Notes under the pieces: generated by a model
Told to the model about the DNA's origin: nothing
Seen by the model: the letters and a program-made list of their open reading frames with translations, nothing else
Database searches by the model: none
Position numbers and translations under genes: made by a program
From: a virus
Virus record (IMG/VR): IMGVR_UViG_3300003478_000018
Coordinates: 1-20,417 of that record
Length of the DNA stretch: 20,417 nt
Direction: 5' to 3' (one strand)
In this document: positions 211 through 13,270 of the stretch, in pieces
Numbering within the stretch: the stretch's first letter is position 1
Layout of the letters: each line of letters begins with the position of its first letter

Positions 211-223
211 AGAGGTTACCTCT
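211..223. repeat. 13-nt perfect palindrome between whiB and the lipoprotein gene
   Basis: AGAGGTTACCTCT reads as two 6-nt arms around one central base. It overlaps the whiB stop codon and contains, on the minus strand, the only AGAGG Shine-Dalgarno-like sequence upstream of the ATG at 206. It could be an operator or a short hairpin that hides the ribosome site. Chance occurrence is not excluded. Confidence 0.35.
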
Positions 224-629
224 AAGACATATCAAAAAGAAACCTACCGGGTGTGTCGTACACCGGGGTCTCTTTGTCAGGCAGGAGGCTAAGGTCAATA
301 GGTTCCTCCAGCATCTGTTCCTCATGAGCCTCTGTGCACTCGTCACAACGACAACCTCGTCGGTAGTCTACCCATTGTCCGTGTGTCTTAGATGACCTGC
401 GTCTCTCTACAGGAGTCAGGCCACCCCACATACCGAACTTCTCTCCCTTGCCATCTTTGTAAGAGGTACCATAGTTAAGGCACTCCTCCCATACGGGGCA
501 CGTAGAGCAAACGAGTCGTCCCATCTCGTACCACTGCTGTGGGTCATTAGCGTCCACTGGGGGATACCACATGAACTGTGCCTTATCTAGGCACGGTGTG
601 TTGTTGACCCACTCAGGTGTTCCTACCAT
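222..629 (-). CDS. whiB: WhiB-family Fe-S transcription regulator
   Basis: This 135-residue protein has the four WhiB cysteines: Cys13, then C-x2-C-x5-C at Cys41, Cys44 and Cys50. They are followed by the family's turn motif GMWGG (66-70) and a basic stretch, TPVERRR. WhiB proteins bind a [4Fe-4S] cluster and act with the host sigma factor to change transcription. I chose ATG 629 because AAGGA lies 7 nt upstream; the in-frame GTG at 674 would add 15 residues and overlap the gene before it. Beyond the normal WhiB domain is an extra tail with H-G-x4-Y and GCRCDEC (92-98), which could bind a second metal. Actinophage WhiB proteins are known and can act as dominant-negative versions of host WhiB. 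The family call is firm; the target genes are not known. Confidence 0.93.
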   Translation of the reverse strand: MVGTPEWVNNTPCLDKAQFMWYPPVDANDPQQWYEMGRLVCSTCPVWEECLNYGTSYKDGKGEKFGMWGGLTPVERRRSSKTHGQWVDYRRGCRCDECTEAHEEQMLEEPIDLSLLPDKETPVYDTPGRFLFDMS

Positions 630-633
630 TTTG

Positions 634-813
634 TTATCCTTCTTTTTTGTTGTTGTTACAGTTATGGCATTCACCAGACCAGATGATGCTGACTAGCGGT
701 AGCATCCTTTCACAGGTTATGCATTGCCCGTACTCATTTCCTGCGCTATCACAAAGTACCGCGTCGTCGTCAGGTTCCTCCGATGAACCATAACCATAGT
801 ACTTCTTAATCAT
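634..813 (-). CDS. Small zinc-ribbon-like protein, 59 residues
   Basis: The reading frame is open further upstream, but ATG 813 overlaps the end of the preceding gene by only 8 nt and fits the packing of the operon. The protein has CITC and CHNC pairs about 17 residues apart, the layout of a small zinc ribbon, plus one earlier Cys and an acidic stretch (EEPDDD). It ends 4 nt before the whiB start and carries whiB's Shine-Dalgarno sequence in its last codons, so the two are probably translated together. A nucleic-acid or protein-binding role is inferred only from the fold. Confidence 0.6.
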   Translation of the reverse strand: MIKKYYGYGSSEEPDDDAVLCDSAGNEYGQCITCERMLPLVSIIWSGECHNCNNNKKEG

Positions 814-6897: not shown

Positions 6898-7200
6898 TTA
6901 GTTACAGCGTGGTTTGAAGAACATTGCGGATATGCTGTCTCCGTTATCCCCTATTATATCATCAAAGCCGATGACGTAGGAAACGTCAATGCCTCGTGGT
7001 GCAACGAATCCTCGTGCGATAGCACATGACTTCACTGCTTGGTTAACCGCACTAGCGCCAATAGCCCTCATTTTAGGAGTGTGACCAGCGCTTATTGCAC
7101 GTGCGAGAATAGAGCCTACGCTCTGTGGGTTACTTGATCCTGATACCTTGATAATAGAATCGTTGGTAACACTGCTATCATACTTAACATTTTCTGACAT
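6898..7200 (-). CDS. spoVS: SpoVS-family (stage V sporulation protein S-like) protein
   Basis: Residues 17-98 match the SpoVS pattern along nearly the full domain: IKVSGSSNPQSVGSILARAI, then RAIGASAVNQAVKSCAIARG, then GIDVSYVIGFDDI and a final KPR. The family is about 86 residues; this one is 100, with a polar N-terminal extension of about 16. SpoVS is a small Alba-like protein that affects sporulation in Bacillus and occurs in several other phyla; nucleic-acid binding is suspected from the fold. The gene stands after a 41-nt gap with a very strong ribosome site, so high expression is likely. It sits between the recombination genes and the unknown cluster. The family call is strong; the role in this phage is inferred only. 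Confidence 0.9.
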   Translation of the reverse strand: MSENVKYDSSVTNDSIIKVSGSSNPQSVGSILARAISAGHTPKMRAIGASAVNQAVKSCAIARGFVAPRGIDVSYVIGFDDIIGDNGDSISAMFFKPRCN

Positions 7201-7206
7201 TGGGAA

Positions 7207-7212
7207 CTCCTT
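7207..7212 (-). promoter_or_regulatory. Strong Shine-Dalgarno site of the SpoVS gene
   Basis: AAGGAG lies 6 nt before ATG 7200 and is the best ribosome site noticed in the window. The 41-nt gap upstream also holds a 5-bp inverted repeat (TACAG/CTGTA, 7236-7250) around the stop codon of the preceding gene. Confidence 0.6.
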
Positions 7213-7241: not shown

Positions 7242-7607
7242 TTACCTGTAACCAGCCTCTTGCATGAGTTCAACCACATCACATAACCGCATCATTGCAT
7301 AGGTCTCGTCCACGGAGTGTGCCCCCTTACCGGGTCGTTTAACAACTAACACGGGTAGACCATTGTCTAGTCTGCTCGCTTGTTCTACAGTGTCATTAAG
7401 CCAGCCACTTAGGTTAAACTTCTTTTGGTTCTTGCACTGAAAGGCTACCTTACGTCCGGTACCTTCCTGTGACACACCATTTAGGTCTCCCGTATCATAG
7501 GCACCCGCCAGTGACGTGCGGTACGCCTCAGTGAATCCCTTTCCTTGTAAGTACTCTTTTATAAGGGTCTCAAACGATGTGCCCTTTTGTTTAGATGGGT
7601 TAGCCAT
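7242..7607 (-). CDS. PD-(D/E)XK nuclease, Holliday junction resolvase-like
   Basis: This 121-residue protein has the layout of small archaeal-type/phage resolvases: NPSKQKGTSFE with Glu13, AGAYDTGDLNG with Asp38 and Asp41, then VAFQCKNQ with Lys59. These would form a metal site that cuts branched DNA. The usual E-x-K is Q-x-K here (Gln57), a variant also known in Mrr-like members of the superfamily. The gene starts in a TAATG overlap with the previous gene and ends the recombination block that begins with recA. Holliday junction cleavage is the best guess; a restriction-like nuclease is the alternative. Confidence 0.7.
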   Translation of the reverse strand: MANPSKQKGTSFETLIKEYLQGKGFTEAYRTSLAGAYDTGDLNGVSQEGTGRKVAFQCKNQKKFNLSGWLNDTVEQASRLDNGLPVLVVKRPGKGAHSVDETYAMMRLCDVVELMQEAGYR

Positions 7608-8077
7608 TATGCGTTAGTCCATTGTGTACGGCGCTCGTTAGGAGCAACACTTATACGTCGTGACAACTCACGAGAGAGCACGCTTGTGTTACGCTCTCCC
7701 CTGTCAAACACAGTAGACACTAACTTACGGTAGGCGCGAGACTGTTGGTACGTGCCACGTTTGTCCATGACCTCGGGGTGTACATCCCGTCGTGCCTTAG
7801 CCATAGTTACTCTCTCAGACTTATTGGTATCCCCGTACTGTAGTAGTACTACTGTCTCTATATGTTTGAGTGCTGCTAGGGACCCTTCTTCAGAGATCTC
7901 TGCTTTAGACAGTTCGGCTTTGGAGTAGTTGACCCACGCCACTACCTCTGTGTACAATGACATAAGGGTACGGTCAGACATGTCCTCTAGGTCGTTAGGT
8001 ATCTCGGGCAGGCTAGTGCCCGGACGTTCTGGCAGAGAGAACTTTAGATTAAACTTGTTGGAGTAAAGGTTGTTCAT
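7607..8077 (-). CDS. Hypothetical helical protein, 156 residues
   Basis: ATG 8077 overlaps the stop of the Cas4-like gene as ATGA and has GGGAG 7 nt upstream, so I prefer it to the longer frame. The protein is mainly helical and charged: an acidic stretch (EIPNDLEDMSD), a helix around SKAELSKAEISEEG, and a strongly basic C-terminal half (RRDVHPEVMDKRG, RELSRRIS). Position between two nucleases suggests a role in DNA recombination or nuclease control. I recognise no family. Confidence 0.6.
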   Translation of the reverse strand: MNNLYSNKFNLKFSLPERPGTSLPEIPNDLEDMSDRTLMSLYTEVVAWVNYSKAELSKAEISEEGSLAALKHIETVVLLQYGDTNKSERVTMAKARRDVHPEVMDKRGTYQQSRAYRKLVSTVFDRGERNTSVLSRELSRRISVAPNERRTQWTNA

Positions 8078-8952
8078 GATGACTCCCAGCATAGGTCCTT
8101 GTAGGCACAATACTTACATGGTGTCTTAGACTTGAACTCAGCCCATGAGGGACGGTCTGGTAACCGATCAGCCTTTAGGTCACTATCAAGAGATCCACAG
8201 TTATAGAGGATGTCACTGATAACCTCTGGTTGGTACTGAACAGTGAACTCTTTAACGTCCTGCCCAGCCTTCCATTCATAGATGAACACCATAGTATGTA
8301 TACCTGTACAGTACATATATAGAGAGCCTTGCCGTAAGTGAGAGGGGAACGGGCGCTTAACGTCCTTCCACATCTCCTCAGCGGTTATCTCTTTGTGTGC
8401 ATACTGGTTGAACAGTTGTGGTGCCTCATACCTGAATGTACCAATACCCATACTCTTTATTTCAATGAGTGCGTCAGATCCGTCGGGCATAATAATGTGC
8501 CCATCGGCGTGACCTAATATGTTTAACTCTTTATTGGTAACAGGAACCTCAAGGTACTCTACTTGTTTAGACTGACAGGACTCACACGTGCCGGACCCAT
8601 ACCAAGTGTGTTCACACTCATGACACAGCCACTTTCCTCTTAGTATTCCGAGGTCCTTAAACCATCCTTGCCACTTGGAGTGTATCCGGTTACCTTCCTC
8701 AAAGATGTTGAGTGTGCGAAAGGGCTTAGGTCTTTCTGGGTTACTTTCTGTAAAGCCCATAACCTTGTAGGCTGTCTCTCGTGTGCACCAGTCCCTCTTA
8801 CACATTGAACTAGGGTGAAAGTGTTTAGTGTCCCGTAGGGCTGAGGACTCTTCGTTGGCCTTTAACAACAAAGGGTGTACTAGGGACACCAGTGTTGACT
8901 TATTCTTCATAGACTCCCGCATAGCGGCAGCCTTCCATGCATCATTGCTCAT
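8074..8952 (-). CDS. Cas4/RecB-like PD-(D/E)XK exonuclease with Fe-S Cys motif and inserted zinc ribbon
   Basis: The 292-residue protein has Cys51 (HPSSMCKR) and a C-terminal C279-x2-C282-x5-C288, the Cas4/AddB type arrangement that holds a [4Fe-4S] cluster. Nuclease motifs are His91 (GNRIH), Asp150 (GHADG), E164-I-K166 and a later Gln (RQGSLYMY). An additional C110-x2-C113...C123-x2-C126 cluster, typical of a zinc ribbon, sits between the first Cys and the catalytic core. It overlaps the previous gene by 11 nt. No cas1 or cas2 and no CRISPR repeats are seen, so this is a recombination or DNA-processing exonuclease, as in many phages, not part of a CRISPR system. Confidence 0.85.
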   Translation of the reverse strand: MSNDAWKAAAMRESMKNKSTLVSLVHPLLLKANEESSALRDTKHFHPSSMCKRDWCTRETAYKVMGFTESNPERPKPFRTLNIFEEGNRIHSKWQGWFKDLGILRGKWLCHECEHTWYGSGTCESCQSKQVEYLEVPVTNKELNILGHADGHIIMPDGSDALIEIKSMGIGTFRYEAPQLFNQYAHKEITAEEMWKDVKRPFPSHLRQGSLYMYCTGIHTMVFIYEWKAGQDVKEFTVQYQPEVISDILYNCGSLDSDLKADRLPDRPSWAEFKSKTPCKYCAYKDLCWESS

Positions 8953-9268
8953 TTGCTATCATCTCCATAAAGTCTGTCTCGCATAATACTACGTATGATC
9001 TTCCACTTATGTCTATCTGCATTACTGGTATTCTGTCTTCCTTGACAGCGACCCTCGTTAACTTGATGAGGTCCACTAACTTTAAGGAGTACGATTGCTT
9101 CTCAGTGAACTTGTTCTCTATGAGCAAGTCCTCGGTACGTACATCATTCTTACGTACCCAGCCAGCGCCCGACATTACATTGCGGCTGCCATTATAGTTT
9201 TCCGCAGAGCGCTTCTCTTGCTTGACTGACTTGTTTAGGATACGGTTCTGTTCTTCCTTACTTCGCAT
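8942..9268 (-). CDS. Small PD-(D/E)XK nuclease, resolvase-like
   Basis: The 108-residue protein has SGAG (33-36), Asp42 (KNDVRTED), E51-N-K53 (LLIENK) and then QSYSLK with a C-terminal strand pair (IPVMQIDI, SYVVL). This order is that of small phage PD-(D/E)XK Holliday junction resolvases. ATG 9268 overlaps the recA end by 11 nt; the GTG at 9274 is less likely. It lies between recA and the Cas4-like nuclease, which fits a role in processing recombination intermediates. The N-terminal 25 residues are basic. Confidence 0.65.
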   Translation of the reverse strand: MRSKEEQNRILNKSVKQEKRSAENYNGSRNVMSGAGWVRKNDVRTEDLLIENKFTEKQSYSLKLVDLIKLTRVAVKEDRIPVMQIDISGRSYVVLCETDFMEMIANEQ

Positions 9269-10289
9269 CCTCACTCACCCATCCGTCAGTAATCAGTTTC
9301 TTTAAGCCTTCCTGTAGGTCTAGGTCTTCACGGAAGGCCAATACCATAGCGTCTCTACCCCGCCACTTATTGTCTCCAAAGGAGTAGAAGGCACCTGACC
9401 GTGTGATTACTTCGTGAGCAACAGCAATGTTTAACATATCCTTAATGGTGTCAAAGTCTCCCATATGGAATGCTTGAGAGTCCGTGAAGTAAAAGTCTAC
9501 GACAGCCTGCTGTTGTGGTTTGAACGTCTTATTCTTAAGGGTTCGGGCCTTAATGGTCTGCCCAACTGCCTGCTTACCATCCTTGATCCACTCATCTTTC
9601 TTCACCTCCACACGAGTAAAGAAGTGGTAGTTCTTGGCCTTGCCTCCGGGTGTAGTGCGAGGGTCTCCCCACATAACACCAATCTTGTCACGCCACTGGT
9701 TAATCATGAGTCCGGTACAAGGACGGTCATACTCTGTGGCAGAGCGCTTTTGTGCGTTGTTAGACTTTCTAAAGAACTTGCCAGTTAGACGAGCACCTAA
9801 GCCGACAGTGAACGCTTCCATGTCCTTTTCGTATTCGTCTCCGGGAACAAGGGCAGGTAATGAGTCAATGACCACCATGTCCACTGCTCGGTTAGCCCAA
9901 GCCCTAAGAACCGTGTCATAGGCACGTTCCATTATGTTGGTCTCCACCACCCACAGGCGGTTGAGGTCCACACCAATAGCAGCAGCGTACTCTGGAACGT
10001 AGTCCTCGGCTGACACCCACATGGCTACCCAGTCAGGGTCTTCTGCTTGGTTAGCAGCGATGGTCTTGTACGCAACAGCAGTCTTTCCTGAGGATTCACT
10101 ACCAATGATCTCTGACCACTGATTTACAGGCCAGCCACCACCGAGCATAAGATCGTAGGCAAGGACACCGGACGTGACACGGTCCATCTCCATGCTTATG
10201 GTGTCCCCTTGTATCAGTGCCCCTTCCCCGTGTTTCTTGTTTATTGCTCTCGCTATTTCGTCAATGGTTTCGTAAGTCGTTGTGTTCAA
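9258..10289 (-). CDS. recA: RecA-family recombinase
   Basis: At 343 residues this is near the length of bacterial RecA. The Walker A is GSESSGKT (63-70), the catalytic Glu is at 95 (WVSAED), Walker B is MVVIDSLPAL with Asp142, and the conserved region NQWRDKIGVMWGDPRTTPGG spans 197-216. It should form filaments on single-stranded DNA and drive strand exchange for recombination-dependent replication or repair. The start is TTG 10289, with AAGGA 7 nt upstream; the next in-frame ATG is at residue 34, too far inside. It heads a recombination block with three nucleases. Confidence 0.95.
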   Translation of the reverse strand: MNTTTYETIDEIARAINKKHGEGALIQGDTISMEMDRVTSGVLAYDLMLGGGWPVNQWSEIIGSESSGKTAVAYKTIAANQAEDPDWVAMWVSAEDYVPEYAAAIGVDLNRLWVVETNIMERAYDTVLRAWANRAVDMVVIDSLPALVPGDEYEKDMEAFTVGLGARLTGKFFRKSNNAQKRSATEYDRPCTGLMINQWRDKIGVMWGDPRTTPGGKAKNYHFFTRVEVKKDEWIKDGKQAVGQTIKARTLKNKTFKPQQQAVVDFYFTDSQAFHMGDFDTIKDMLNIAVAHEVITRSGAFYSFGDNKWRGRDAMVLAFREDLDLQEGLKKLITDGWVSEDAK

Positions 10290-10299
10290 TCTATTATCC

Positions 10300-10719
10300 T
10301 TATGGTGCTACCCAAGCAGATTGGTCTGCTTGTTCATATAGTCCGTTGTATCCACACTCATAACAGCGTGGCGCTGGGGACGCTCCGTTGATCATACTGC
10401 CTCCGGTGCGTGATGTGCGGGAGAAGTAGTTATTACTTCCGCAACTAGGGCACACAAGGTGACCGTCCTTCTTCCATGCCTCTCCACCTTGCCATGTTCG
10501 TATGGCATCTCCCATAGTTACTTGACCATTAGGATCGGGGTGGTGCTGCTGGTTCTGTTGCTGTTGGTTAATGTACCGCTCTTGTGGTGACGGTTGTGTC
10601 ACAGGCTGCGGATTAGTTTGTGCCGTAGGGAAGTTTATGGGTGGGGTATTAGGTGTGTCCCGCACCTCTCTTGATTGTGGCTCTTTACCAGCCAGTCGGT
10701 CTGCCCACCAGTCACCCAT
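10300..10719 (-). CDS. Zinc-ribbon protein with Pro/Gln-rich linker
   Basis: The 139-residue protein opens with a short conserved-looking MGDWWADRLAG. A disordered Pro/Thr/Gln/Asn-rich linker (about 20-65) follows, and then a zinc ribbon with C90-P-S-C93 and C119-Y-E-C122. Loops between the Cys pairs are Arg/Gly/Ser-rich and end in an aromatic YNGLYEQ. It starts in a TAATG overlap with GAGGAAGAG upstream. Such ribbons bind nucleic acid or protein partners. Its place between polymerase and recA suggests a replication or recombination helper, but this is inferred only. Confidence 0.65.
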   Translation of the reverse strand: MGDWWADRLAGKEPQSREVRDTPNTPPINFPTAQTNPQPVTQPSPQERYINQQQQNQQHHPDPNGQVTMGDAIRTWQGGEAWKKDGHLVCPSCGSNNYFSRTSRTGGSMINGASPAPRCYECGYNGLYEQADQSAWVAP

Positions 10720-11183
10720 TACTCTTCCTCACATATCTGTAGTAGATCTTCGTCTATAAGTTTTGACACTGCTGACACTATACACCCCATAAAGGTGCCG
10801 TAGGCAGATTCCTTAATATCCTTGAACATCTTTATTATTTCTTCGTGTTCTACAGGTTCAAACGTAGCGTAATCATCGGAATCCGGGTCATCATTATTAA
10901 TACGGATCAGGAAATCAGACCCGTCAGACAGGTCCTCTTCATCCGGTAACATCTCTTCCCTGACCATTATCTCGGACATCCACTCAGAGGACTCTTCTAT
11001 GGACTCTATGACACCCATGCTGGTCAGGAGGCTCCAGCGGCGCAGTACATCCTTCTCCTCGTACTCTCGCACCTCGTCCGTTGCTGGTGTTAATCCAGCC
11101 TCTGTAGCGATGTCTTGCCCATCTGGGGGAGACAGCATGAGGTAAAAGTTACGCTTTGCTGATAGGTTCTCAATAAATGGCAT
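10719..11183 (-). CDS. Strongly acidic hypothetical protein, 154 residues
   Basis: About 30% of residues are Asp or Glu by my count, against roughly a dozen Lys/Arg. Long acidic runs occur (LPDEEDLSDGSD, NNDDPDSDD). The N- and C-terminal parts look helical. ATG 11183 overlaps the polymerase stop as TAATG and has GGAGG 7 nt upstream, which makes it clearly better than ATG 11201. The composition would suit a DNA mimic or a protein that binds basic partners. I recognise no family. Confidence 0.6.
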   Translation of the reverse strand: MPFIENLSAKRNFYLMLSPPDGQDIATEAGLTPATDEVREYEEKDVLRRWSLLTSMGVIESIEESSEWMSEIMVREEMLPDEEDLSDGSDFLIRINNDDPDSDDYATFEPVEHEEIIKMFKDIKESAYGTFMGCIVSAVSKLIDEDLLQICEEE

Positions 11184-13270
11184 TACTTGGCCTCCGACCA
11201 TGTGCGTGCTGTACTGTAGGACACAACTAGGGGCACACCCTTTATGACTACTCCATGTCCCATTGCTTCCATTAGTACTCCTGTTACTTCTTCCATGTCT
11301 AAGTGGTTGGGTACGTTCACGACAAGTTCGTCGTGTACCTGTACTAACAGTTTAGCACCACTTCCGTTAAGTTCTTTGAAGGACTTAATCATGGCCTTCT
11401 TACAGATGTCTGAGGCGCTTCCTTGCACCACAGCGTTGACCGATTGTCGCTCTGCTCGTGACCTGTCTGCGTTGTCAGCAGAGTTGATGTCTGGTAGTCG
11501 CCGCTTGCGCCCAGATATAGTGGTTACAAAGCCGTCACGTTGTGCTTGCCTAACTACTGAGTTCTTCCACTTAGAGAGCGTGCTAAACTGTTCGTAGTAC
11601 TGGTTGATGACGTTACGAGCATGGGCTACCGTGATACCAGCGGAGTCAGCAAGTTTACCAGCGCCACCGCCATAGGCCGTGAGGAAGTTAGTGGCCTTCC
11701 CTATCTGCCTCTCTTCACTTGTTACTTCCTCAATAGGCTTGTTAAACACAAGAGCCGCAGCACCCGAATGGATGTCCTTCTCATTAAGGAAGATGTCCAG
11801 CATATTGGCGTCCTTGCTAAACATAGCCATTACACGGAGTTCTACTTGGTCATAGTCAGCAACAAGTAGGGTGGAGTCCTCTTGGGCGCAGAACAAACCA
11901 CGCACGCTGGCCTCTCTCGGTATGTTCTGTAGGTTGGGGTTAGACGAAGATAGCCTGCCCGTGGCTGTACGGTTCAGGTGAAAACTGGGGTGAACCCTTC
12001 CATTGTTAATCTTGGGGAGCATACCCTCTACGTATGTGCTCTTCGTCTTCTTACATTCAGACCACTCTAGAAACAATGGAATAGCCTTATTCTTCTTTTC
12101 CATCTTTCGTAGAGTCTCTTGGTCCACCGACGGTTGTCCTTTTAGTGTTTGTTTAATGGGTGTTAGTTCTAGACCACCCTCGCTCTTCTTGCTGTATAGG
12201 AAGCGCCTCTTATCAACAACAGAGTCAGGGTTGAATCCGGGGTAGGTGAGAGCATTCATGTTCACCTTTAACTCAAGGAGCCTACTGTCTAACTCTTTGC
12301 CGAGAGCGACCATGCCATCACGGTCTACTGTGATGCCCTCATGCTCCATGTTCATAAGAACTTCAAGTACCTCTGAGTCTTGCTCAAGCACAGACACGAA
12401 CTCTGGTAACTGTGACATAAGTTTATTATAGAGTAGCCACGTCCAGCGAGCATCTAAGTGCACGTACCGGCAGGATACAGAGAAAGGGGAGAAGGCAATG
12501 ATAGCACCGATCTTACCTTCCCTATCGTAGGGGTTGTATCCATCAAAGTGTGTACGTATGAGGTTAACTAGGGAGTAACCTTTGTGATTATCATCCAGAA
12601 TGTGCTGGGCTATCATGGTGTCTCGGAAAGGGCCAACTGGCATCTCTCCATAGTACTTGTATATTGACCTAGCATCAAACTTTACGTTGTGACCTACTTT
12701 AGTAATACTACTATCAAAGAAGATTGGTCGTAGTGCTTCAAAAACCTTATGCTTAGATAGTTGTGTAGGGGGAGGGCCGAACACAGCGTGCTTAACATAC
12801 TTAGCCTTCGCCATAGACTCCCTCCCACTCTTTAGTATGTTTCGCAGACCAGTGGGTGGTGTTGTGCTCCCGTCCCCTACCTCTTCTTCTTCAATAATCT
12901 CCCCGTTAGGGTGACCCATAGGTATAGCCCACGAGTGTCCATGCGTTGCTATGCCCATCCATATAACTTCGTTACGCATAGGATCAAGAGCCAAGTCCTT
13001 GGTTATGGCTGCTGCTTTGTTTTCTCTCACCCTATCATTAGTACCAGAAACAATGGTCTTTAGTGTAGCGATGTGCTCTTCTACCTGCTGGTCTAGAAGT
13101 TCTAGAAGGTCAGCGTGGTTGGTAAGAACACCAAGGGTCTCTACGTCAAACGCAAAGGAACCTACGGACTGTACAACCCGTACTAGTTCCTCAATCTCTT
13201 TAACTGTGGTGAGGTAGCAAGGACCGGGGTGGTCTGTTCGGGCACCCCGGTCCTTAACACTAACGGACAT
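11183..13270 (-). CDS. polA: Family A DNA polymerase with 3'-5' exonuclease
   Basis: The 695-residue protein is close in size to T7 polymerase. The exonuclease domain is intact: FDVET (Asp42, Glu44), HNVKFD (Asp199) and Y269-x3-D273. The polymerase has motif A with Asp472 (ADYDQVELR), motif B with Arg521, Lys525, Phe529 and Tyr533 (RQIGKATNFLTAYG), and motif C with VHDE (646-648). The 5' nuclease domain of bacterial Pol I is absent. It should be the phage replicative polymerase. Phe529 matches E. coli Phe762. The gene follows the SSB by 4 nt with AAGG 8-9 nt before the ATG. Confidence 0.96.
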   Translation of the reverse strand: MSVSVKDRGARTDHPGPCYLTTVKEIEELVRVVQSVGSFAFDVETLGVLTNHADLLELLDQQVEEHIATLKTIVSGTNDRVRENKAAAITKDLALDPMRNEVIWMGIATHGHSWAIPMGHPNGEIIEEEEVGDGSTTPPTGLRNILKSGRESMAKAKYVKHAVFGPPPTQLSKHKVFEALRPIFFDSSITKVGHNVKFDARSIYKYYGEMPVGPFRDTMIAQHILDDNHKGYSLVNLIRTHFDGYNPYDREGKIGAIIAFSPFSVSCRYVHLDARWTWLLYNKLMSQLPEFVSVLEQDSEVLEVLMNMEHEGITVDRDGMVALGKELDSRLLELKVNMNALTYPGFNPDSVVDKRRFLYSKKSEGGLELTPIKQTLKGQPSVDQETLRKMEKKNKAIPLFLEWSECKKTKSTYVEGMLPKINNGRVHPSFHLNRTATGRLSSSNPNLQNIPREASVRGLFCAQEDSTLLVADYDQVELRVMAMFSKDANMLDIFLNEKDIHSGAAALVFNKPIEEVTSEERQIGKATNFLTAYGGGAGKLADSAGITVAHARNVINQYYEQFSTLSKWKNSVVRQAQRDGFVTTISGRKRRLPDINSADNADRSRAERQSVNAVVQGSASDICKKAMIKSFKELNGSGAKLLVQVHDELVVNVPNHLDMEEVTGVLMEAMGHGVVIKGVPLVVSYSTARTWSEAK

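Follow-up and report, generated by a model that had tools for sequence, protein, structure and literature searches.

Why an actinophage-like genome should carry a gene for SpoVS, a protein that an earlier note on this DNA assigned to sporulation in Bacillus, is the question raised by the locus considered here. The window, i.e. the whole stretch of 20,417 nucleotides that was analysed, belongs to a virus record of 26,231 bases containing a single SpoVS match. The earlier note offered two functions, i.e. steering of host dormancy or sporulation, and Alba-like nucleic-acid binding during replication. That interpretation is partly supported by the present analysis, with binding favoured over steering; we propose, with a probability of about 0.5, that the product is a phage-owned Alba-fold nucleic-acid-binding protein serving the phage DNA recombination and replication machinery. 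Rigden and Galperin reportedly carried out a sequence analysis of SpoVS in 2008; to our knowledge, SpoVS has no established biochemical activity.

The product of the minus-strand open reading frame (100 codons, with an ATG start at 7200; Table 1) is confirmed as a genuine SpoVS-family protein. The Pfam SpoVS profile (PF04232) matches it with an E-value of 1.6e-19 and 69.9 bits (cut-off 24) over residues 16-93, i.e. profile positions 2-78 of 83, as expected from the proposed match along the full domain; the PHROGs match is phrog_35646 'sporulation protein' (E 7.7e-17) and the PDB match is Thermus SpoVS, 2eh1 (E 5e-10). A chance open reading frame or a weak match is rejected by the Pfam and PDB matches, and by the SpoVS structural matches described below. 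The ribosome site is, as had been noted, strong, its Shine-Dalgarno match being the joint longest, with that of RecA, among 29 open reading frames of the window that were compared (taken from their longest-ORF starts).

Table 1. Coordinates of the SpoVS gene, its ribosome site and other features of the window
Feature	Position	Strand	Evidence or remark
SpoVS-family protein (predicted Alba fold), phage-type, 100 aa	6898..7200	-	PF04232; AlphaFold2 model; fold matches; phage-only clade
Shine-Dalgarno AAGGAG before the SpoVS ATG	7207..7212	-	6-base spacer; sequence and scan
Hjc-like PD-(D/E)XK nuclease, predicted Holliday junction resolvase	7242..7607	-	phrog_244; adjoins SpoVS upstream, 41-base gap
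Conserved protein between Cas4-like gene and nuclease	7607..8110	-	in 74/78 SpoVS-picked relatives
Cas4-like exonuclease	8074..8952	-	phrog_2506 exonuclease, E 1e-31; phrog_1990 Cas4-domain exonuclease
Second nuclease labelled Holliday junction resolvase	8942..9274	-	phrog_2002, E 3.7e-19
RecA/UvsX-like recombinase	9258..10289	-	phrog_97, E 1.1e-54
Family A DNA polymerase	11183..13270	-	phrog_17, E 9.7e-122; nearest in BRock-group Streptomyces phages
WhiB-family protein (actinobacterial host marker)	222..674	-	PF02467, E 3.2e-10

An AlphaFold2 model of the SpoVS protein, built on a 49-row alignment, has a pLDDT of 89 and a pTM of 0.76. Its predicted order of elements, strand-helix-strand-helix-strand-strand (E-H-E-H-E-E, i.e. 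beta-alpha-beta-alpha-beta-beta), is the topology of the Alba superfamily, to which SpoVS is assigned in the available part of a 2024 analysis (PMC11621453). The structures closest to the model are SpoVS chains, i.e. 2eh1, 2ek0 and 9a7h (Z 15.6-16, rmsd 1.4-1.6, 86 residues), so that the fold predicted is that of SpoVS; archaeal Alba proteins come next (Z 10.6 to 9.2, ~80 residues), and Foldseek likewise ranks SpoVS first, then Alba. The Alba-like fold of the model hints at nucleic-acid binding by phage SpoVS, without proving it, and the protein may act as a dimer. It is unlikely to be a DNA mimic, the net charge of its core being about +2.

A maximum likelihood tree of 103 SpoVS rows, comprising 50 phage-type and 53 cellular-type, places the phage-type rows in a single clade, set apart by a branch supported at 100/100; the cellular-type rows opposite include Firmicutes, actinobacterial, TS-12-type and Lysinibacillus-phage copies. 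The inner forks of the tree are unsure because the alignment has few columns. In one of the alignments used (A4), several rows are clipped at the C terminus or have extra N-terminal residues. Two long rows (L287 and L184) were left out of this tree, and are present in a quick tree, where the cellular and TS-type rows are again on one side of a branch with a support of 100. The division is evident at residue 45, which is Arg in all 108 distinct phage-type cores and in none of 110 cellular cores (Gln in 105/110), and at residue 69, which is Arg in 108/108 of the former vs 3/110 of the latter, where mostly Asn or Ser is present. The core carries a net charge of +2.1 in the phage type vs +0.9 in the cellular type, and dN/dS is about 0.09, a value obtained near saturation (only 74 of 223 usable pairs, from 400 drawn, have dS <1.5). 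A recent capture from a host is not supported, given the split from the 53 cellular-type rows and identities of 40-51% for the genome_contigs matches listed (at least 80), beyond which closer copies may exist.

The records of Stenotrophomonas phage TS-12 and of faecal 'Bacteriophage sp.' were set aside as evidence for unrelated phage hosts, since they have a cellular-type SpoVS and bacterial-looking surroundings. The TS-12 record (L082, MW302330.1), in which the neighbours of the cellular-type SpoVS are annotated as monooxygenase, ABC transporter and metal-dependent phosphohydrolase, looks at least partly like a bacterial chromosome. In the faecal records (L086 and L087; MT836246.1 and MT835471.1) YmdB is directly upstream of SpoVS, an order shared with some bacterial loci, and they are therefore probably bacterial contigs. 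Lysinibacillus phage SpoVS is also cellular-type and, in the one of two phages examined, has no nuclease of the kind found in the window directly upstream; no relatives of it were found in viral_contigs. Therefore, not every phage SpoVS fits the recombination-block picture described below.

With respect to the host, WhiB is present in the window, as the earlier note had it, and in 19 of 20 long records of the window's family; the family is regarded as actinobacterial in the available parts of two papers (PMC10202952, PMC6802176), and a WhiB gene in the virus is what is expected of an actinophage. The best-ranked phage-collection matches of the DNA polymerase are in BRock-group Streptomyces phages, at about 33% identity, and the description 'actinophage-like' thus holds. 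Among 396 genomes of one phylum, 177 have a WhiB match, 128 have a SpoVS match and only ten have both, with the SpoVS match in one of the ten (G086) being below the cut-off; most of the plausible hosts therefore seem to lack SpoVS. PF04232 also matches control genomes of Thermus, Deinobacterium and Thermotoga, such that the description of SpoVS as a Bacillus sporulation protein is too narrow.

It may be that phage SpoVS is a host-development effector, acting on septation, dormancy or sporulation of the host. Reports on soil and marine viromes (PMC6172770, PMC8940887, PMC9765229, in the parts available) describe viral spoVS and interpret it in this way, i.e. as serving sporulation, and Bacillus SpoVS mutants are delayed in forming the polar septum according to the accessible text of another study (PMC8510167); the co-occurrence of WhiB in the window also fits. 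The phage-only clade, the constant place in a recombination block, the lack of a SpoVS match in 167 of the 177 WhiB-bearing genomes, and the finding of no tyrosine integrase in 20/20 long relatives (a search for the tyrosine type only, in records that may be incomplete) all point the other way. The context argues against a role in endospore formation, and the steering of host dormancy or sporulation proposed in the earlier note is unsupported and, in our view, highly improbable.

The block containing SpoVS runs along the minus strand in the order family A DNA polymerase, two small conserved proteins, RecA/UvsX, the phrog_2002 nuclease, the Cas4-like exonuclease, the 7607-8110 protein (with no family match in searches of Pfam and PHROGs), a small nuclease and SpoVS; these genes may be co-transcribed. 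The phrog_2002 nuclease, present in 72/81 loci, follows RecA and precedes the Cas4-like gene, giving the block two resolvase-labelled nucleases. The two small proteins (10300-10719 and 10719-11201), which have no PHROGs match and one of which has paired CxxC motifs by eye, are held tightly between the polymerase and RecA in all 69 loci measured. Elsewhere in the window, a queuine tRNA-ribosyltransferase family gene (806-2269; phrog_887), present in 32/81 loci, many of which end before that place, is possibly like the dpdA-like gene of the Streptomyces phage GiJojo; it may indicate 7-deazaguanine DNA modification.

Viral loci picked by SpoVS similarity comprised the best 80 of 169, the best 80 of 104 and the best 80 of at least 574 relatives, together with further sets of 12/12 and 17/17; they are a non-random sample, in which some contigs recur, and are biased towards the close kin of the window. 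Among the best 80 of 169 viral_contigs relatives, a nuclease of the window's kind immediately precedes SpoVS in 80/80 loci. The gap between the two genes has a median of 38 bases and is ≤150 bases in 77/78 loci (near-identical loci left out), while the spacers on either side vary, i.e. from 26 to 1491 bases before the nuclease and from 148 to 4354 bases after SpoVS (5-95% ranges, SpoVS-picked loci); other neighbours in the block are spaced just as closely. The phage-type loci of four SpoVS scans reduce to 199 distinct stretches once identical DNA is merged. Resolvases were labelled in these by their BLAST similarity to eight query proteins, an HMM check of representatives bearing out the labels. 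In 194/199, a predicted Holliday junction resolvase was present ≤161 bases upstream of SpoVS, i.e. 114 Hjc-like (the window's type), 74 RuvC-like and 6 endonuclease VII. Of the five stretches without a call, two (L325 and L360) start at a contig edge and in three (L278, L279 and L287) a RuvC-like or Hjc-like gene lies upstream at a slightly greater distance. In the controls, a resolvase was directly upstream of SpoVS in 0/80 bacterial loci and in 0/17 TS-12-type viral loci.

The small nuclease of the window is labelled 'RusA-like' in PHROGs (phrog_244, E 5e-23), and is PD-(D/E)XK-like, with Mrr_cat above and PDDEXK_15 below the cut-off. The top four PDB matches of its profile are ST1444 and three Hjc entries, all weak (E 0.003-0.01). 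An AlphaFold2 model (pLDDT 82) has a PD-(D/E)XK fold nearest to Hjc or similar resolvases, its top eight structural matches being Hjc or Holliday junction resolving enzymes with modest Z values (7.9-8.5); Foldseek gives Hjc (1gef, E 1.3e-4) and the PrfA Holliday junction resolvase (2fco, E 1.7e-3). The enzyme is thus a predicted Holliday junction resolvase.

The place that this nuclease occupies is variously filled. In BRock-group Streptomyces phages a RuvC-like gene directly precedes SpoVS; in further relatives the preceding gene is Hjc-like again, or encodes endonuclease VII. The close relatives L098 and L099 differ by a clean swap of the nuclease alone: the identity of their DNA is 79% until the preceding kinase gene ends, their nucleases (endonuclease VII vs Hjc-like) have no similarity, and past the nuclease the DNA is again 86% identical through SpoVS, with SpoVS proteins that are 99% identical. 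A nuclease difference of the same kind separates L093 from L094, the latter having one further small open reading frame. Across 20 long records, phrog_244 is present in seven and phrog_159 in eight, with both in none, and phrog_307 is present in six, in four of them in the slot and in two elsewhere, as an endonuclease VII additional to a RuvC-like gene in the slot; one record (L155) was matched by none of the three phrog searches, but a scan of its slot protein matches phrog_244. GiJojo, by annotation, similarly carries an endonuclease VII outside its RuvC-like slot. Mapped on the SpoVS tree, the resolvase type has changed at least four times (48 labelled rows) or five times (quick tree). Three unrelated resolvase types have, therefore, occupied the place upstream of SpoVS; retention of SpoVS while unrelated resolvases change suggests that it does not bind one nuclease but acts on DNA, or simply happens to belong to the block.

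Because the SpoVS-picked loci are biased towards close kin of the window, a separate set of 80 loci was picked by RecA (80/80 RecA relatives). SpoVS is present in 50/80 of these overall and in all 42 that reach ≥5 kb past RecA; together with its single lineage, this does not accord with SpoVS being carried neutrally by unrelated phages, a possibility raised earlier. Where SpoVS is present (50 loci), its distance from RecA is 2.1-4.2 kb, and exactly one resolvase type (31 Hjc-like, 19 RuvC-like) is present ≤1.2 kb upstream in every case. In 23 of the 50 (RecA ≥60% identical), the resolvase is Hjc-like and adjacent to SpoVS. By contrast, in the 27 more distant loci it is RuvC-like (19) or Hjc-like (8) and lies 321-1174 bases from SpoVS, with small genes in between; the proposal that the resolvase is always directly upstream is thus rejected. 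In the same 27 loci the resolvase adjoins a protein of the 7607-8110 type, also close to it in some near loci, which makes that protein a second candidate partner of the resolvase.

Nor is SpoVS the most conserved protein of the block, as its lead is seen only in the SpoVS-picked loci, where median identities are 77% for SpoVS and 67% for RecA. In the RecA-picked set they are 52% (48 loci) and 56% (78 loci), respectively, and in the eight distant loci that match all four compared genes 47% and 55%; the lead is at least in part a selection effect. SpoVS is, then, a constant member of the block, with a resolvase always near in the RecA-picked set and strict pairing limited to some sub-lineages. 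That direct adjacency is not universal lowers the odds both of our main reading and of a partnership with the resolvase, and raises those of a protein with no link to the resolvase. The synteny is also partly inherited and independent support therefore rests on few resolvase changes. Further points against the main reading are the equally close spacing elsewhere in the block, the second resolvase-labelled nuclease and the endonuclease VII genes outside the slot.

If there is no link to the resolvase, SpoVS would be a DNA-organising, nucleoid-like protein, with the resolvase being just a nearby gene of the block or the place one where nucleases are replaced. The Alba fold of the model, the exchange of the nuclease with SpoVS untouched in L098/L099, the non-adjacency in 27/50 RecA-picked loci and the endonuclease VII genes elsewhere in two related records are all consistent with this; the presence of a resolvase ≤1.2 kb upstream in 50/50, and a pair held within 161 bases in the window's family while the DNA on both sides varies, are less easily reconciled with it, and we regard it as rather unlikely. 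It is similarly doubtful, this being the boldest reading, that phage SpoVS is a general resolvase partner, binding branched DNA and handing it over to, or guarding it from, any of the unrelated resolvases. If that were so, the activity of SpoVS would be the binding of structured nucleic acids on which structure-specific nucleases also act, with its targets being junctions in phages and, in cells, the substrates of RNase III or RNase Y.

The neighbours of cellular SpoVS bear on a further possibility. In the 42 of 84 bacterial upstream neighbours that were scanned (loci among L185-L275 and L369-L375), the gene before SpoVS encodes RNase III in 13, a radical-SAM protein in 12, RNase Y in three and YmdB in two, a possible clue to cellular SpoVS function. 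The position of cellular SpoVS, often behind RNase III or RNase Y, favours RNA binding and keeps it as a serious alternative, i.e. phage SpoVS may be a regulator tuning phage or host RNA stability or translation, its place in the block reflecting shared expression timing only. The Alba superfamily includes RNase P/MRP proteins, as stated in the accessible part of the 2024 analysis (PMC11621453), which is in keeping with such a role, whereas the phage block is one of DNA recombination and replication, with nucleases nearby that are predicted to act on DNA junctions; we consider RNA regulation unlikely.

Overall, the evidence fits a phage recombination protein better than a sporulation effector, and, of the functions in the earlier note, favours the Alba-like nucleic-acid binder in replication, based on the predicted topology and the constant membership of a recombination/replication block. 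According to our main reading, SpoVS would be a small Alba-fold nucleic-acid binder within the phage's own recombination/replication machinery, with a good ribosome site for its translation in the gene block of RecA, Cas4 and resolvase. Its probable task would be to coat or organise phage DNA in branched, concatemeric form during processing by RecA, the Cas4-like exonuclease and the Holliday junction resolvase; it would act on DNA, not on one particular nuclease, and may be functionally coupled to the resolvase. The changes of resolvase type, the lack of any long record with both phrog_244 and phrog_159, the Arg residues at 45 and 69 and the more positive core of the phage type also speak for this reading.

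Thus, SpoVS is a constant recombination-block member in an actinophage lineage that is represented by hundreds of contigs in IMG/VR, and lies near a resolvase place in which unrelated enzymes have succeeded one another. In the available parts of the literature on SpoVS with phage, Alba or auxiliary metabolic genes, no published report of a SpoVS recombination block or resolvase link was found, and, of the papers retrieved on SpoVS and Holliday junctions, none is about phages by title. The membership of the block calls into question the ecological inference that viral spoVS is an auxiliary gene for sporulation or dormancy, and culturable Streptomyces phages with SpoVS provide a direct test bed for its function. 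The family is known; its setting is new and strongly structured, and makes SpoVS function testable.

With SpoVS of Bacillus and Thermus (PF04232; 2eh1, 2ek0, 9a7h) the phage-type proteins have in common the whole-domain sequence match, the fold, and the invariant residues G48, A49, N53, Q54, K57 and F79. They differ in having R45, R69, G78 and I90-S91, where cellular SpoVS mostly has Q, N/S, A and R-T, in forming a separate clade, and in lying in a DNA recombination block rather than beside RNA enzymes. The predicted fold is also like that of Alba/Sso10b archaeal DNA/RNA-binding proteins (Z about 10 over about 80 residues), but the archaeal Alba rows listed have only 12-19% identity to the window SpoVS, which is of viral and bacterial lineage. 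In soil and marine viromes, the 'spoVS' genes of viral contigs that are counted as auxiliary (PMC6172770, PMC8940887) are of the same protein family; in the available text they are read as sporulation genes, with no gene neighbourhood given, and may be of either type. The nearest parallel is in the BRock-group Streptomyces phages, where the SpoVS-family proteins GiJojo gp164 and LuckySocke gp174 are both annotated as hypothetical, and one record has 'sporulation protein'. GiJojo SpoVS falls in the phage-type clade, and the BRock-group genes lie in the same kind of block as in the window, directly downstream of a resolvase, which is, however, RuvC-like rather than Hjc-like, with SpoVS proteins about 40% identical to that of the window.
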